DNA of 47,859 nt, from the NCBI GenBank assembly GCA_025062195.1, contig JANXAS010000023.1, forward strand, positions 1 to 47,859. Reading direction: 5' to 3'. The stretch is from Armatimonadota bacterium. Its GTDB lineage: Bacteria; Armatimonadota; Fervidibacteria; Fervidibacterales; Thermosaccharophagaceae. Each line of letters opens with the position of its first letter. Positions within the stretch are counted from its first letter, which is position 1. The notes below the pieces were generated by a model. The model saw nothing but the letters and a program-made list of their open reading frames with translations. It was not told where the DNA came from and did no database searches. The position numbers and the translations under genes are program-made. Positions 748 to 35,561 of the stretch are shown here, in pieces.

Positions 748-1246
748 CCTTGCGCACCTCCGAAAGGAGAAGGTTATCAACCGTCTCAACGATCTTCTCG
801 GCAAGCAACTCAGCTGCCCTTTGACCAATCTCTCCGAGGATGTAATTGCTTTCTCCGCTGAGATCAATTCCAGCTTGGCGGAAGAATTCATGAGCATAAA
901 TGACAGCATCCGGCTCCTTGCCGTAGCGTTGGCACATCCTTGAACCACACGCATATGGACATGCCTCAATTGCGACAACTGGATAAGAAAGCACATAGAT
1001 GACATCCTCTTCGGCGCCGACAAATAGCGCTGGTGCACACCCGAGAACCGTCACCTTTGGGCGCAGTTTCTCGGCAACAATGTAACAAGCCTGCCTGACA
1101 GCAGTCCCGATAGCATCTTCCAAACCCAAACATGGCATGAGGCAAACTTTTAATCCCCTGTCGGCAATCGCCCTTATCAAGCACGGGCATGTGCGCCTAA
1201 CAACTTGGTTCCTTTTTCTGCTCGCTTGATTCTTCATCTTGCCCAC
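695..1246 (-). CDS. DGC-type putative zinc-binding protein, second paralogue
   Basis: The product (about 183 aa) has the layout of the DGC domain family (putative zinc-binding, four conserved cysteines): KVCLMPCLGLEDAIGTAVRQ near the N-terminus, then an acidic residue followed by a cysteine cluster (EACPYACGSRMCQRYG) in the middle, and a helical C-terminus. The start is taken as GTG at 1246 because it follows AGGGGTGA, the same ribosome site that precedes the neighbouring paralogue. It overlaps that gene's end by 50 nt; the frame is open to 1285 and an ATG at 1237 is also possible. The family's function is not established; some members sit near selenium or metal genes. It differs from its neighbour by having extra cysteines (MCQRYG) and replacing the Asp-Gly-Cys with Glu-Ala-Cys. 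Confidence 0.7.
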   Translation of the reverse strand: MGKMKNQASRKRNQVVRRTCPCLIRAIADRGLKVCLMPCLGLEDAIGTAVRQACYIVAEKLRPKVTVLGCAPALFVGAEEDVIYVLSYPVVAIEACPYACGSRMCQRYGKEPDAVIYAHEFFRQAGIDLSGESNYILGEIGQRAAELLAEKIVETVDNLLLSEVRKVAKVSSEQRAKGSIKSG

Positions 1247-1712
1247 TTGATTCACCCCTGTAATTGGCGATAAGCTCGTCAACAAGCTTGATCACCTCAT
1301 CTGCGATTGCTTCAACAACCTTCATGCCCTTTTCGGAATAGCGGCTACGCTGTTCTCCCTTCAGCGATAAGCCATACTTTACACAAACCTCAGGGATGTA
1401 AATTCGCCCAATGACTTTGCCACCCACCTTTGAAGGCTTGATGATGCCTTTCTCAACCTTCTCATCATACACGCCGCTCGCACACTTTGGTCTACAGCCG
1501 TCAATCAAGATGAGCGGATATGAATTAGCATCACTTACAGCCCTCGGATACTCAACACCCAATGTAGCAGCACCCCAGACGATAATTCTATCGGGACGAA
1601 TTTGCTGCGCACGCAATGCAGCAAGCCGTGCTGCCGTTGAAACAAGCATACCAATGCCATTGCATGAAACTACAACCACCTTCAGCCTTGAATGTTCAGA
1701 TGTTCCCACCAA
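1197..1712 (-). CDS. DGC-type putative zinc-binding protein, first paralogue
   Basis: A 171-aa protein with the DGC signature: VVVVSCNGIGMLVSTAARLA at the N-terminus, then LILIDGCRPKCASGVYDEKV, which contains the literal Asp-Gly-Cys motif and a following cysteine. A further Cys lies in EVCVKYGL. The C-terminal tail (GESSGQDEESSEQKKEPSC) is acidic and probably disordered. The start is TTG at 1712 behind AGGGGTG; the next codon, GTG, could serve as well. This family is annotated as putative zinc-binding from its cysteines; its biochemistry is unknown. It lies downstream of mrdA in the same direction. Only a mobile repeat at 1750-1960 separates it from the end of the 68-codon frame, so the pair probably once belonged to the trp/mrdA transcript. 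Confidence 0.75.
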   Translation of the reverse strand: MVGTSEHSRLKVVVVSCNGIGMLVSTAARLAALRAQQIRPDRIIVWGAATLGVEYPRAVSDANSYPLILIDGCRPKCASGVYDEKVEKGIIKPSKVGGKVIGRIYIPEVCVKYGLSLKGEQRSRYSEKGMKVVEAIADEVIKLVDELIANYRGESSGQDEESSEQKKEPSC

Positions 1713-1749
1713 TGCTCACCCCTGTAGCAGTCAGAGCTGAAATTGCCCT

Positions 1750-1960
1750 CCCTCTTTACTTCAAATGTTGTTGGAACGCTTTTTAAAAACCATGCTATGA
1801 GCTTTAGCCCATAGTCGCTGATGAATTCCCTGAGCGCTGCCTTTAGACGGCGGTTAATTCTCACCGAATGAATTCGGCGCTCAGCCTTTTCGTCATCAAC
1901 CACTGGCTAAAGCCAGCGGTATGGATGACCAAGCGCCACCAAACTTTGCAGTAAAGAGCG
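1750..1960. repeat. MITE copy 1 with terminal inverted repeats and 8-bp target duplication
   Basis: A 211-bp non-coding element. Its left end CCCTCTTTACT and the reverse complement of its right end, CGCTCTTTACT, match at 10 of 11 positions; weaker inverted similarity continues for about 30 bp. It is flanked by ATTGCCCT (1742-1749) and ATTGCCTT (1961-1968), a near-perfect 8-bp target duplication. Inside are four hairpins in the order Y then X: 1794-1813 (CTATGAGCTTTAGCCCATAG), about 1836-1853 (GCCTTTAGACGGC core), 1862-1880 (ACCGAATGAATTCGGCGC) and 1900-1919 (CCACTGGCTAAAGCCAGCGG). An apparent open frame across it (1682-1903, minus) is only the repeat read through. Confidence 0.85.
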
Positions 1961-1967
1961 ATTGCCT

Positions 1968-2174
1968 TTAAGTTTCATCGTGACTTATCGGCAAGAAAAA
2001 CTGACCAGCTGAAGCACCGTTTTCATCGGTGAATTTATGGCGTGCTCTAAACTTGCCCACCCATTCACCACGCTCTTTTCGCTCCTTGAAAGTTTTGTGG
2101 ACAATGTGGAGTGCAAGCTCAGCTATTACACGCCTTCTTTCTGCCTCAGCTTTGGTGGCAATACAATTTAGCTT
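1968..2174 (-). other. 68-codon open frame in phase with the mrdA stop codon
   Basis: Directly after the TGA of mrdA (2175-2177) the same frame stays open for 68 codons to a TAA at 1968-1970. The translation looks like real protein, not noise: charged and helical at first (AEAERRRVIAELALHIVHK, then FKERKERGEWVGKFRARHKF), ending ASAGQFFLPISHDET. No ATG, GTG or TTG occurs in frame near its beginning; the first plausible initiators are an ATT at 2162 or a GTG well inside. Possibilities are readthrough of the mrdA TGA, a short gene with an ATT start, or a separate gene whose start was lost by a frameshift (a GTG in another frame overlaps the mrdA stop and opens VKAKLY). I recognise no family. Confidence 0.4.
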
Positions 2175-3959
2175 TCACCAACGGATATAACTTGTGCGTT
2201 CCCTTCTTTCAAACCACCATCGCATTTCAACTAACACCTGTTTCATTATTGGAACTGCCACTTCGCCACCATGTCCGCTCGCTTCAACGATAACAGAAAA
2301 GGCAACCTTTGGCGAGTCAATTGGCGCATAGCCTATGAACCATGCATGTGGCTTTTCACCGCGCCTGTGCTGCGATGAGCCAGTTTTGCCAGCAACACTT
2401 ATAGGTGAGTTCACTAATGCTCTCGCAGTCCCACCATTGCCATAAACTGCACACTGCATGCCATACCTTATTGGGGTTAATGTTTTCGGATTGATAGACA
2501 GTTTGCTTAGCACAAGTGGCTCATAGCGCTTGATGATTCTCCCAGAACCATCCTCAATTGATAAGAGCAAATGCGGTCTATAAACGATACCACCATTTGC
2601 TATTGCAGCTGCAACAATGCACATCTGCAACGGCGTCGTTAACAAGTAGCCCTGTCCTATAGCGTAGTTTGCTGTATCGCCATCATACCATCTCACGCCA
2701 TATCTGGCTTTCTTCCAAGATGGCGTTGGAACTAACCCACTTCGCTCACCGGGAAGGTCAATTTTGCAATTCCTCCCGAGCAAAAACATATTCGCATACT
2801 TGCTCAACCTCTCAGGTCCAACGAGCAGTCCCACTCGGTAAAAGTAAGTGTCACAAGATTGCCCGATTGCTCTCACAAGGTCAACGGTGCCATGCCTGCG
2901 CCAACATCTGAAAAACCTTCTCCCGACACGCAAACCGCCATTGCATGTGAACTTAGTTTGTGGCGTTATAACTCCGCTTGAAAGCCCAGCAAGCGCCGTT
3001 ACAAGTTTGAATGTTGACCCTGGCGGATAGCACCCACCGATGGCTTTGTTTTGAAGTGGATGTGACCTGTCTGTTCGGAGTTTATGCCACTCACTTTTGG
3101 TCATCCCGTTTGAGAATGAATTGGGTGAGAATGATGGCGAACTGCACATTGCCAGTATGCTTCCGTCGTTAACATCCATAACTACAATTGCTCCGTGTCG
3201 TCCTTTTAATGCCGCCTCACAAGCCATCTGCCAACGAAGGTCAAGCGTCAGGCGCAATGTCTTTCCGGGGCGTGCCCGTATCTCGGAAAGTTTGCGCACA
3301 AGTGCCCCGGCAGCATCCACCTCAACTAACTTGTAACCCTTCTTTCCCTGCAAGAATTTGTCGTAGACTTTCTCCACGCCGCTTTTTCCGACCCTATCGC
3401 CCGGCAAAAGTTCGTGACGCTCCTTCAACACTTCCTTACTAACCTCACCGATATACCCGAGCACATGAGCTGCGAGTTTATCATACGGATAGCGTCTTAT
3501 TGGGACTTCTTCAATGGTCACACCGGTCATGGTGTGCATTCGTTCAAGCGCTTCAATCAAGCTCTTTTTATCCAAGCCTCTTTTTATGGCAACTGGCTCA
3601 AAGCCCCTGTAGCGGCTATCGCTTACGAGTTCAAGGATCTGTTTTTCTGTCTTGCCGCTTAGCTTAGATAGCAAATGAAGCGTTCCATCTGACACTTCAA
3701 ACTCGGCTGGTATGACGCACAAGTTGTAGGAGATGGTATTAGTGGCGAGCACATTCCCATTTGAGTCAACTATGAGACCCCTTGGGGGATGAATGACTAC
3801 AGAGCGCACCCAGTGACGACGGGCACGCTCATCGTAATATGATGCCTGAAGTATTTGCAGATACCAAAGGCGGGCAGCAAACACGAGAAAAATGACAGCG
3901 AGCAAAATCTGAATGGCGTTTATTCTTCGCTGCAAAGCATCGCTGAAGCGCCCGTTCAC
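2175..3959 (-). CDS. mrdA: Penicillin-binding protein 2, peptidoglycan DD-transpeptidase
   Basis: A class B PBP of 594 aa, the elongation-specific transpeptidase that crosslinks peptidoglycan in the periplasm with RodA and MreBCD. It has one membrane anchor (about residues 13-30), the dimerisation/pedestal part with the R-G-x-I/L-x-D motif (PPRGLIVDSNGNVLAT, 58-73), and a C-terminal transpeptidase domain. The domain carries STFK (Ser315 nucleophile, Lys318), SCD (368-370, the PBP2 variant of SxN) and KTG (525-527) followed by the HAWFIGYAP motif. The start is GTG at 3959 behind GGAGG, overlapping the cyclase stop by 4 nt (GTGA), so the two are translationally coupled. rodA and mreBCD are not in the window. 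The protein ends shortly after the domain at YIRW, but see the in-phase frame that follows. Confidence 0.95.
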   Translation of the reverse strand: MNGRFSDALQRRINAIQILLAVIFLVFAARLWYLQILQASYYDERARRHWVRSVVIHPPRGLIVDSNGNVLATNTISYNLCVIPAEFEVSDGTLHLLSKLSGKTEKQILELVSDSRYRGFEPVAIKRGLDKKSLIEALERMHTMTGVTIEEVPIRRYPYDKLAAHVLGYIGEVSKEVLKERHELLPGDRVGKSGVEKVYDKFLQGKKGYKLVEVDAAGALVRKLSEIRARPGKTLRLTLDLRWQMACEAALKGRHGAIVVMDVNDGSILAMCSSPSFSPNSFSNGMTKSEWHKLRTDRSHPLQNKAIGGCYPPGSTFKLVTALAGLSSGVITPQTKFTCNGGLRVGRRFFRCWRRHGTVDLVRAIGQSCDTYFYRVGLLVGPERLSKYANMFLLGRNCKIDLPGERSGLVPTPSWKKARYGVRWYDGDTANYAIGQGYLLTTPLQMCIVAAAIANGGIVYRPHLLLSIEDGSGRIIKRYEPLVLSKLSINPKTLTPIRYGMQCAVYGNGGTARALVNSPISVAGKTGSSQHRRGEKPHAWFIGYAPIDSPKVAFSVIVEASGHGGEVAVPIMKQVLVEMRWWFERRERTSYIRW

Positions 3960-9471: not shown

Positions 9472-10857
9472 ATGAAAATCAGTGAAATGAGGAAGGCTGC
9501 ACCGCTGTCATGCGTTTGGCTAATAGCGTTAATGGTGCAGTTAGCATTGGCACAGCAAAGGGCAGGCGTTTATAAATGTCTTTCAGTTGAGGCTCCAAAC
9601 ACGCTGAAGTTTGAGAAGCTGGGAACGGTCACACTCATCGGGGTCAAATCACCAGCTGCAGCCGACCCGGGATTTGAGAGTGCAATGCAAGTTGTGCGAC
9701 GATATGCAGAGGGCAAATCGCTCAAGGTTGAGCCTTGTCCCATCCGACCAAAAGATGATGAAGGAAAGCTTCGCGCCATCGTTTACTTCCGTGAAGCTAA
9801 CACATGGCACAACTTGAATACAAAGCTTCTTAGGGCTGGCTATGCGATGCTGCAAAGTGAGGAACGCTGCCATGTGAATGTTAAAGCATGGGTGAAGTTT
9901 GTTGCACAGGCACAATCGCAAGGAAGAGGGCTATGGGCAAGGTTGCAACCTGAGCGTCAGATTGAAACTGACTATGTTATGGCATTGCATGGCTTGAGAG
10001 TAGCGGAAACTGTTGCGAGGGCGCCGAGAGCTTACATAGGTGTTGGTCTTCTTCCGGCAACTCCAGAGAGGATGAGCAGGGTGGGCGAAGCTTTGCTCCC
10101 ACTTGGACCCGCTTTGAGAGAATCATATCAAGCGCTTGGAAATATCACTTCAACAGAGTATGTGCAATTACGCACATTGGTTGACGCCAGGGAAAGATGC
10201 CTTACGCTTGAGAATGCATTGCGCACCGGCGTCCCAATTAGGGCTTTAAATCCGAGGCGCTTGATGGAGCTCTTCATTGAGCGAGATTTGCCAGCACCAA
10301 CAAATGCGCTTACCGCACCTGTGCGAGATGACAGAGGACGAACAATTTGGGAGGCGATGCAACAGCTCTATTTGACCGATGCGCGCGAGCCGCTTCACGA
10401 AATACTGTTTTGGTTTCCCGGAGTGCAAAGTCAGTTTAGGAACAGGCTAATAGCCCTTGGCGCACAACTTGTCGGCGGTCCAATGCAAGCAGCACCAACT
10501 GGGGTTGCAGCACCGATGGGAGCACCACCAGGTGGGATGCCGGGTGCACCACCAGGTGGAATGCCAGGTGCGCCAATGGGTGCACCACCAACAGGGCTTG
10601 GTGCAGCTGGTGCTCCAGCTGCAGCTCCAGCAGGCGGATTGCAATCATATTACGAATTGCTCGGAAGGATAAGGGCAAGGCGAGTTGAGCCTGAAGAGGC
10701 ATGCTTGCTTATGCTCGCCTTAAGGACATACCGCAGGGAGTTCCTTGAGGACGAAATTGATAGGGCAAAGAGACGCTACGAGAAGGCTGTTGAGCAGCAG
10801 CGCAAATTTGAAGCCTTCATGCAAAGGCAGCTTCAAAGGACCACAGTTGGAAGGTAA
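9472..10857 (+). CDS. Exported protein with a degenerate staphylococcal-nuclease (SNase) fold
   Basis: A 461-aa protein with a signal peptide (LIALMVQLALAQQ, cut near residue 28) followed by an SNase/Tudor-SN type OB domain (about 30-155): KFEKLGTVTLIGVKSPAA, GKSLKVEPC, LRAIVYF, LNTKLLRAGYAML, and QGRGLWA at the end. In active SNases the first motif reads R-L-x-G-I-D-x-P-E; here Arg, Asp and Glu are replaced (VTLIGVKSPA), so nuclease activity is doubtful. The middle (155-330) is helical without a known family. Residues about 335-390 form a Gly/Pro/Met/Ala-rich repeat linker (GAPPGGMPGAPPGGMPGAPM), and the C-terminus is a charged helix (ELLGRIRARR to the end). The start is ATG with GAGGTGA. 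A catalytically dead, periplasmic binding or scaffold protein is my inference. Confidence 0.75.
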   Translation: MKISEMRKAAPLSCVWLIALMVQLALAQQRAGVYKCLSVEAPNTLKFEKLGTVTLIGVKSPAAADPGFESAMQVVRRYAEGKSLKVEPCPIRPKDDEGKLRAIVYFREANTWHNLNTKLLRAGYAMLQSEERCHVNVKAWVKFVAQAQSQGRGLWARLQPERQIETDYVMALHGLRVAETVARAPRAYIGVGLLPATPERMSRVGEALLPLGPALRESYQALGNITSTEYVQLRTLVDARERCLTLENALRTGVPIRALNPRRLMELFIERDLPAPTNALTAPVRDDRGRTIWEAMQQLYLTDAREPLHEILFWFPGVQSQFRNRLIALGAQLVGGPMQAAPTGVAAPMGAPPGGMPGAPPGGMPGAPMGAPPTGLGAAGAPAAAPAGGLQSYYELLGRIRARRVEPEEACLLMLALRTYRREFLEDEIDRAKRRYEKAVEQQRKFEAFMQRQLQRTTVGR

Positions 10858-10917: not shown

Positions 10918-10962
10918 TGAGCAACGAACTTCAAGCCAATGAGATTATTGGCAAGATGCTCA
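10918..10962 (+). other. Two-tier hairpin between the SNase-like gene and rpsO
   Basis: TGAGCA (10918-10923) pairs with TGCTCA (10957-10962). Inside it GCCAAT (10935-10940) pairs with ATTGGC (10947-10952) around a 6-nt loop. It lies upstream of the rpsO promoter. It could be part of the SNase-like gene's 3' end, but no U-tract follows, so it is not a standard terminator. Confidence 0.35.
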
Positions 10963-10975
10963 TTATACTGCTGCA

Positions 10976-11003
10976 TTGCGTGCAAGTCTGCACCACATAT
11001 AAT
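10976..11003 (+). promoter_or_regulatory. Promoter of rpsO-pnp
   Basis: A perfect -10 TATAAT (10998-11003) with a weak -35 TTGCGT (10976-10981) and a 16-nt spacer. The start would be near 11010, about 95 nt before the rpsO GTG. Confidence 0.6.
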
Positions 11004-11020
11004 GGTAACTTTATCATAAG

Positions 11021-11104
11021 CCTCAAGTGCGATCAGCCCGCGAGAATCAAATTTCATGCTGGTCAAAATGAGGTATCCTTGAGACTGTGAGGAGGGATGT
11101 CAAA
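11021..11104 (+). promoter_or_regulatory. Candidate S15 autoregulatory leader
   Basis: Between the promoter and rpsO, CCTCAAG (11021-11027) can pair either with TGAGG (11069-11073) or with CTTGAG (11078-11083), two mutually exclusive stems just before the GGAGG ribosome site. S15 is known to regulate its own mRNA through structured leaders of several unrelated shapes in different bacteria. That this leader binds S15 is inference. Confidence 0.35.
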
Positions 11105-11449
11105 GTGCCTTTGAGCAAATATGAGAAGTGGAGAATCATCAAGCAGTGGCAGCATAGCCCTGATGATACAGGTTCGCCAGAAGTCCAAATTGCGATTTTG
11201 ACCGAACGAATAAACAGGCTAACAGAGCACCTGCGCCAACATAGGAAAGATGTCCACTCAAGGCGCGGTCTAATCCTCATGCACAGCAAGAGACGAAGGC
11301 TGCTTCGCTATCTCGCAAAGAGGGACATAAATCGCTACCGAAGGGTCATTGAGGGGCTGGGCATAAGAGACTTCTTCGGGATACTGCGCAGCCAGCCATC
11401 AACACAAATTGAAGGGGCATCGCAAGCTCAACAAGAAACAACACAATGA
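11105..11449 (+). CDS. rpsO: 30S ribosomal protein S15 with C-terminal extension
   Basis: S15 binds the 16S rRNA central domain and bridges to the 50S subunit. The core is typical: [71 protein letters not shown]. The GTG at 11105 is preferred over the in-frame TTG/GTG upstream because it follows GGAGG with 9 nt spacing and gives the usual Pro-Leu-Ser-Lys N-terminus. The protein is 114 aa; the usual S15 is about 88-89. The excess is a Gln/Ser/Thr-rich tail after LGIRD, probably disordered. The rpsO-pnp order is widely conserved. Confidence 0.97.
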
Positions 11450-19377: not shown

Positions 19378-19467
19378 CTTAACGCCACTTCGCCTTCGTG
19401 GCTAACTACGAACTTAACCGCATTCTTAACGCCACTTCGCTATCGCTTCGTGGCTAACTACGAACTT
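19378..19467 (+). repeat. Direct tandem duplication of a MITE-internal segment
   Basis: CTTAACGCCACTTCGCCTTC followed by GTGGCTAACTACGAACTT (19378-19415) is repeated at 19425-19467 with a 7-nt insertion (TATCGCT). The unit is the reverse complement of the TAGTTAGCCACGAAGCG segment inside the element at 35391. Confidence 0.6.
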
Positions 19468-19476
19468 GGAAAATTC

Positions 19477-19673
19477 TCGCCGAATGAATTCGGCGCTCAT
19501 TTTGTTTCGTCATCAACCACTGGCTAAAGCCAGTGGCATGTAACAAAGCGCGCTTTTTCAAAACCATGCTATGGGCTTTGGCTTATAGTGGCTGACGAAT
19601 TCTTGAGCGCCGTATTTAGACGGCGGTGATATTCTCTTCAATAGCTTTTTGGCTCGGCAGTAGCCTTGCCCCA
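19477..19673 (+). repeat. X-Y-Z composite repeat, forward copy
   Basis: X: GCCGAATGAATTCGGCGC (19490-19507 region) and CCACTGGCTAAAGCCAGTGG; spacer GCATGTAACAAAGCGCGC; Y: CTATGGGCTTTGGCTTATAG and GCCGTATTTAGACGGC; Z: GGCTCGGCAGTAGCCTTGCC. Same order as 14013-14216 but in the opposite orientation; the MITEs at 1750 and 23230 carry Y before X instead. Confidence 0.8.
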
Positions 19674-19742
19674 TGAAGCAACTCTGAATTCAGAACTCTG
19701 TATTCAAAATTCAACCTGGCTTGGTAGTGCAAAAAAGTGAAA

Positions 19743-19843
19743 CTGATTATATGTCAGGTATGGTGCGGTATTGTTGCCTTACTTTGCACTACGCATCACT
19801 CCGTGCCTTTACTGCGAACCAACAAACTTTTGAGTAAAGAGCG
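19743..19843 (+). repeat. MITE right half
   Basis: Matches the right half of the 35391-35561 element: GTCAGGTATGGTGCGGTATT, then TTACTTTGCACTACG, the CCGTGCC segment, and the end CAAACTTTTGAGTAAAGAGC plus G. No target duplication is seen with the left fragment at 19113. Confidence 0.65.
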
Positions 19844-23108: not shown

Positions 23109-23691
23109 CGCACATCACCTGCTTCTTTTTCTTCGGCTCTTTGCTGTAAGCTTTGGCGGTGCAGCAACATAAGTGTGCTGCTCCCGACCAGCATCACACA
23201 TCGTCGGCTATGGAAGTCAAAAACGAGAATGCTTCTTTACTTCCAATGCTGTTGGTGAATGCTTTTCACAACCATGCTATGGGCTAAAGCCTATAGTCCC
23301 TGATGAAACCAATTAGCGCTGCCTTCGGACGGCTTTGAAAATTATCGCCGAATGAATCCGGCGTTCCTTTGCTCCGTCATCAACCACCAGCTAAAGCCGG
23401 TGGCATGTGCAGCAGAGCACAAACAAACTTTGTAGTAAAGAGCGAACGAGAAAATCTATAGCGGTCGCCATTCACAGGCACCAGATGTTCCAATGTTCCA
23501 AACTACAGCTGCAGACTATACACAACGCTATCAAGTTTAAAACCCAACAATATTTCACGGCTAAAGGATTTCCATCCGAAGCCTTTTCTCACCTACTCAT
23601 GTTCTGTTTTTAAAGCCCTTCTCAGTTCCTTGTGAGCTACGGGTCAAACATTTCGCTCACTTTGCTCGCACCGCTCCGGCAACGGTATCTG
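23109..23691. other. 583-bp gap holding MITE copy 2
   Basis: The MITE occupies 23230-23444. The flanks show no other feature. The end of the symporter gene, just inside the coding region (23694-23708), has the palindrome GGCTCCTAAAGGAGC, which might act in termination, but no U-tract follows. Confidence 0.5.
23230..23444. repeat. MITE copy 2 with perfect 8-bp target duplication
   Basis: A 215-bp element flanked on both sides by AACGAGAA (23222-23229 and 23445-23452). Left end TGCTTCTTTACTTCC; right end, reverse complemented, CGCTCTTTACTACAAAGTTT. Internal order Y then X, as in copy 1: CTATGGGCTAAAGCCTATAG, a GCCTTCGGACGGC core, CGCCGAATGAATCCGGCG, CCACCAGCTAAAGCCGGTGG. It is alignable over its full length with 1750-1960. 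Confidence 0.88.
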
Positions 23692-35390: not shown

Positions 35391-35561
35391 CGCTCTTTAA
35401 CAAAAACTCTGTTGATTAGGTTTGTAGTTAGCCACGAAGCGAATGCGGGGCGCATAAAATCAGTGTGAGGTGCAGTATTGCTGTCTTACTTTGCACTCAT
35501 TACGGCACTCCGCTTCGCTCGGTGCCTTACTATGAACCGACGAAATTCTGAGCAAAGAGCG
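35391..35561. repeat. MITE-like element with different interior, upstream of the sigma gene
   Basis: 171 bp bounded by CGCTCTTTAACAAAAACT at the left and, reverse complemented, CGCTCTTTGCTCAGAATTTC at the right. Inverted similarity extends about 50 bp (TTGATTAGGTTTGTAGTTAG against GTCGGTTCATAGTAAGGCAC). The X and Y hairpins are absent, yet the termini match those of 1750-1960. A clean target duplication was not found. It fills almost the whole tamB-sigma gap. Confidence 0.65.

Follow-up and report, generated by a model that had tools for sequence, protein, structure and literature searches.

A 211-bp repeat between mrdA and a DGC-domain gene of an Armatimonadota bacterium is very probably an IS1595-derived MITE

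On the minus strand of contig JANXAS010000023.1 of an Armatimonadota bacterium (GenBank assembly GCA_025062195.1), mrdA and the first of the DGC-domain genes are separated by a gap that holds a 211-bp repeat. What is this repeat, what moved it there, and does it influence the genes on either side? We addressed these questions for the whole 47,859-nt stretch of DNA under analysis (positions 1 to 47,859 of the contig, termed the window). The initial annotation had described a MITE at this site, and its coordinates, termini and flanks proved exact to the base. The features of the locus are:

1197 to 1709, minus strand: first DGC-domain gene (PF08859), GTG start
1682 to 1903, minus strand: 73-aa ORF leaving the element across the DGC start, judged incidental
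1719 to 1725, minus strand: AGGGGTG ribosome site of the first DGC gene, about 16 bp past the left duplication
1742 to 1749, no strand: left target duplication copy, ATTGCCCT; read from the sequence, 7/8 bases as in the right copy
1750 to 1960, no strand: MITE of 211 bp, type A (CTTTAG hairpin interior)
1750 to 1775, plus strand: left terminal inverted repeat (TIR), 20/26 pairs with the right end
1795 to 1814, minus strand: terminator-like hairpin, then GGTTTTT, in the mrdA/DGC direction; T run in few copies
1935 to 1960, minus strand: right TIR
1961 to 1968, no strand: right target duplication copy, ATTGCCTT
1968 to 2174, minus strand: 68-codon frame plus stop, lacking an ATG, GTG or TTG start, probable relic of a DNA methyltransferase C-terminus
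2175 to 3959, minus strand: mrdA (PBP2) gene

The element ends in CCCTCTTTACT and AGTAAAGAGCG, both of which lie within the 26-nt imperfect inverted repeat. None of 20,000 mononucleotide shuffles reached the observed pairing of its terminal bases, and the left TIR agrees with the pattern of the family at 24 of 25 positions. The element is short, carries TIRs and has no transposase gene; its only ORF of at least 60 aa has no Pfam match. Its insertion added 219 bp to a co-directional intergenic gap and disrupted no recognisable gene.

The element is one of many dispersed copies with defined ends. A blastn search against its own genome (3.42 Mb, 170 contigs) returned at least 57 matches, a lower bound with 40 of 219 candidates scored. 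The 25-bp end pattern CGCTCTTTACTNCAAANNTTGTTGG is found 245 times in the same genome when up to three mismatches are allowed, evenly on both strands, while the reversed control gave no match. The genome of this hot-spring bacterium holds more than 100 related copies. At up to two mismatches the end pattern is restricted to three of 291 Armatimonadota genomes, namely that of the window and two incomplete genomes from another family of the same order. It is absent from G001, which is 96% complete and belongs to the same genus as the two other-family carriers. No TIR was found in viral contigs and no element in plasmids and phages, and none of the papers searched dealt with MITEs or insertion sequences (IS) in this group. 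On a crude ORF-based gene map 59 of 66 elements are intergenic, and 45 of these 59 lie in co-directional gaps, which is near expectation; on this map insertions show no bias with respect to gene orientation. The position of the element within a train of genes is therefore ordinary.

The two flanks of the element had been taken as a target duplication. Across the genome of the window and two related genomes we paired 51 elements by end position and sequence only, blind to the flanks. Their flanks agree at a mean of 5.33 of 8 positions, compared to 2.40 ± 0.19 when the right flanks are re-dealt, and 22 of the 51 show seven or eight matches, as against 0.9% in shuffles. The duplication is exactly 8 bp long: lengths of 4–6 and 10–12 bp give little or no signal, lengths 7 and 9 mere spill-over of the 8-bp signal. 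The duplicated targets are A/T-rich at their edges. As scored, 17 of the 51 have four or fewer flanking bases alike, indicating that some pairs are wrong, rearranged or decayed; one of these 17 (L023) reaches 8/8 once its end is shifted by one base. The initial annotation had named, as evidence against an insertion, copies of the 211 bp elsewhere without duplications; most complete copies do have them, and both the MITE and its insertion with an 8-bp target duplication are supported by the TIRs and by the family-wide duplication.

Empty sites were found for sibling copies. When the flanks of one element with a type-B interior (L166:7625-7805) are joined, the match to several copies of a dispersed repeat continues through the junction, and the best sister repeat, L159:2441-2521, holds ATTAAGGT once and thus represents the empty site. 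A second type-B element (L167:1819-2019) is nested in a type-A copy, and its flanks, once joined, align with type-A copies over almost their full length. No such site was found for the mrdA-DGC locus in the genomes searched, whose closest mrdA is about 50% identical.

Which transposase moved the element? A search of the window's genome with PF12762 revealed one IS1595-type transposase, on contig C128 (L212). Inward-facing family TIRs lie at positions 10636 and 11816 of L212, on either side of the PF12762 / NCBIfam IS1595 domain, the left one matching at 22/25 positions and the right one with two mismatches. They thus delimit an IS of 1181 bp, nested MITE included. Its catalytic part matches the NCBIfam IS1595 model with an E-value of 8.7e-14, under the NCBIfam cut-off score, and the Pfam model with 1.5e-11, over the Pfam cut-off. 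The N-terminal zinc part matches PF12760 (E 0.046) and NF050000 (E 0.0021) weakly, both under their cut-offs. A type-A MITE with a perfect 8-bp duplication, AACACTTT, is nested in the transposase gene (10925-11135), and when its flanks are joined without it the protein aligns, with no gap where they meet, to an intact IS1595 transposase encoded by a different Armatimonadota genome. The joined transposase contains internal stops, and the L212 IS is therefore dead; its outer flanks, AACTCCTT and CATTTTGT, disagree. No intact autonomous copy was found among 159 sampled TIR ends, covering about 0.8 Mb of partly overlapping stretches. Moreover, G004 has a remnant of a related transposase (69% and 64% over short pieces), and CGCTCTATACTCCAAA lies about 110 bp past its end.

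The shared TIRs around the IS1595 copy, the nested MITE and the G004 end together argue for an IS1595-derived MITE, and the element has an 8-bp duplication and shares its TIRs with an IS that encodes a DDE_Tnp_IS1595 transposase. IS1595 members usually produce 8-bp duplications and possess a zinc finger (PMC8101967). Their eukaryotic relatives, termed Merlin, have TIRs with a terminal GG (PMC8101967), unlike the TIR of the window's family, which starts with CG. Judged from its sequence, the 211-bp segment is very probably a non-autonomous MITE that a DDE transposase of the IS1595 family mobilised in trans and inserted at an 8-bp target. The common ends suggest that an IS1595 lineage of the L212 type probably supplied this transposase. 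The enzyme would have bound the terminal repeats of about 25 bp (CGCTCTTTACTNCAAANNTTGTTGG), and when the element entered its 8-bp target in the mrdA-DGC gap those eight bases would have been duplicated. The family is now decayed.

It is very unlikely that a transposase outside the IS1595 family moved the MITE, and that the TIRs around the IS1595 remnant reflect coincidence or the ends of nested MITEs. TIRs are dense in this genome, the IS1595 copy is a wreck, and transposase fragments with a PF01609 domain also lie close to MITE copies. However, both IS ends face inward and lie near the gene, which by a rough estimate from the TIR density is expected by chance about once in 50000 such genes, and the right end is seen again in G004, about as far away. 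The G004 insertion sequence with PF01609 appears to have different ends (CTATAGTTTTGCAT). With these differing ends the PF01609 fragments were rejected as the partner; one G004 copy is itself split by MITEs. Searches with PF00872 and PF01610 gave no match, and PF13546 gave only a sub-threshold fragment, at a PF01609 remnant on contig C84.

Beyond the TIRs, inspection of the MITE interior revealed no evident similarity to the IS, and the MITE thus did not arise from the IS by simple internal deletion. The family TIRs enclose at least two main interiors: type A, that of the window's element, consists of four hairpins, and type B of one long palindrome with a variable centre. Further interiors and composites exist. 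One or more TIRs lie nearby in 64 of 84 classified type-A clusters and 57 of 74 type-B clusters, although adjacency to a single TIR is not a strict criterion at places with many TIRs. Another module, C, stands mostly alone (34 of 42 clusters); in the sampled stretches of G000 it is a common short repeat, GGCTCGGCAGTAGCCTCGCCCT, mostly independent of TIRs. A 282-bp element with family ends (L009:44-325) is flanked on either side by AAAATTTT; its interior, type D, is also rich in hairpins but differs from the others.

Such interiors raise the question of whether the element is a structured or regulatory RNA, for example a riboswitch-like leader of the DGC gene, and not a transposon copy. The predicted fold is indeed very stable on both strands (z-scores of -7.1 and -7.5), and four hairpins are common to the copies. 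However, an alignment of 22 copies shows two compensatory pairs, compared to 2.6 in shuffles, and its covariation score is below the shuffled mean; there is no Rfam match; other members that share the TIRs enclose unrelated interiors; and the copies are diverging from a shared ancestor that was palindromic. The type-A helices are kept through sequence conservation and not through compensatory change. Given this missing covariation an RNA gene was rejected, and a structured or regulatory RNA is extremely unlikely. It is hardly credible that the element is a palindrome of the REP/BIME kind, mobilised by a Y1 transposase (RAYT or IS200/IS605); such palindromes have single-strand hairpin ends and leave no target duplication. 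The hairpin-rich interior, and the occurrence of some interior modules without TIRs, would suit it, but the 8-bp duplication is strong and length-specific, and the TIRs are terminal, paired and also present on the IS1595 copy.

The IS1595-derived family appears to be old. Among the full-length pairs examined the highest identity is 93.2%, and the element at 1750-1960 has 85% identity to the consensus, which argues that the burst is old; the element itself is apparently old and inactive. It is possible, if doubtful, that one IS1595 lineage mobilised several MITE subfamilies having only the 25-bp ends in common and enclosing unrelated long palindromes, some of them built from other repeats of the genome, and that these spread between two bacterial families of one order, with none in a near-complete genome that shares its genus with two of the carriers. 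If so, the interiors would be exchangeable cargo chosen for their palindromic structure.

Did the insertion split an operon? The initial annotation had proposed that the genes formed one contiguous operon before the insertion. It had placed the TAA of the 68-codon frame, once the element is removed, about 48 nt before the AGGGGTG site, and this distance is about right, since joining the flanks gives a few tens of bases. The frame continues in frame after the mrdA stop, and searches outside the genome gave a single relative, the C-terminal portion of an N6/N4 DNA methylase of 295 aa in G002, with identity at 25 of 39 residues. Since it lacks a start codon and matches a methyltransferase C-terminus, it is probably a gene relic, as far as can be read from the sequence. 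The mrdA-DGC gap minus the element measures about 245 bp. Moreover, in the two relatives that we read, G001 and G004, the genes beside mrdA differ from those of the window and the DGC gene does not lie next to mrdA. With a gap of this size, a startless methyltransferase relic and a DGC gene apart from mrdA in G001 and G004, the single operon is unsupported.

The element is also unlikely to be a transcription attenuator that split a former mrdA-DGC operon. The gene strand does carry the terminator-like hairpin (1814-1795), and the ribosome site of the DGC gene is intact outside the element. However, the T run is absent from most copies, such hairpins occur near shuffle expectation (two found, 0.6 expected), the gap was already about 245 bp long with a gene relic inside, and insertions are unbiased by gene orientation. 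Operon and regulatory readings thus are speculative: the element is most likely a neutral spacer, and its putative hairpin would at most weaken read-through into the DGC gene. Immediately downstream of mrdA in G004 (L176, contig C111, 1953-2319), a double type-A MITE lies within the IS ending in CTATAGTTTTGCAT; two lineages therefore have MITEs close to mrdA, though not at the same place.

Elements of this type are well known; what is new is the probable transposase and the unrelated palindromic interiors within one family. The closest likeness, by description, is the IS1595-family MITE of Haloquadratum walsbyi (partner ISHwa6, 165 bp, inverted repeat of 25, direct repeat of 8; PMC3852290), with which our element has in common the parent IS family, TIRs of about 25 bp, the 8-bp duplication and a resemblance between MITE and IS that is mainly at the ends. 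That MITE, however, is archaeal and has seven copies, whereas this bacterium has more than 100 TIR-bearing elements with several interiors. The IS1595 insertion sequence ISApl4 has A/T-rich 8-bp repeats, a DDE domain and mostly intergenic insertions (PMC12561309), as seen here for duplications, partner domain and insertion sites, but it is autonomous and has 14-bp repeats, while the window's element lacks a transposase. MITEPye1 of Paracoccus yeei is likewise small and TIR-bearing, has duplications and is predicted to form a long stem-loop, and its transposase is presumed to act in trans (PMC11578231); it belongs, however, to the IS1182 family and has one to three chromosomal copies. For this Armatimonadota lineage a MITE family is now defined, together with its probable parent IS, the exact signature of its insertion and the empty sites of sibling copies. 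The host itself is probably little affected. In genomes of this kind, intergenic repeats rich in hairpins should not be taken for RNA genes, nor the mrdA-DGC gap for an operon.

Elsewhere in the window, a weak pair of family ends (20/25 each) lies 171 bp apart at 35391-35561, with flanks that do not match. A composite at 19380-19843 combines a type-B module with half of a type-A core and a single family end on the minus strand (19819-19843). Finally, a second type-A copy, 78.5% identical to the consensus, occupies positions 23230-23444 and is bordered by a perfect 8-bp duplication, AACGAGAA, at 23222-23229 and 23445-23452.
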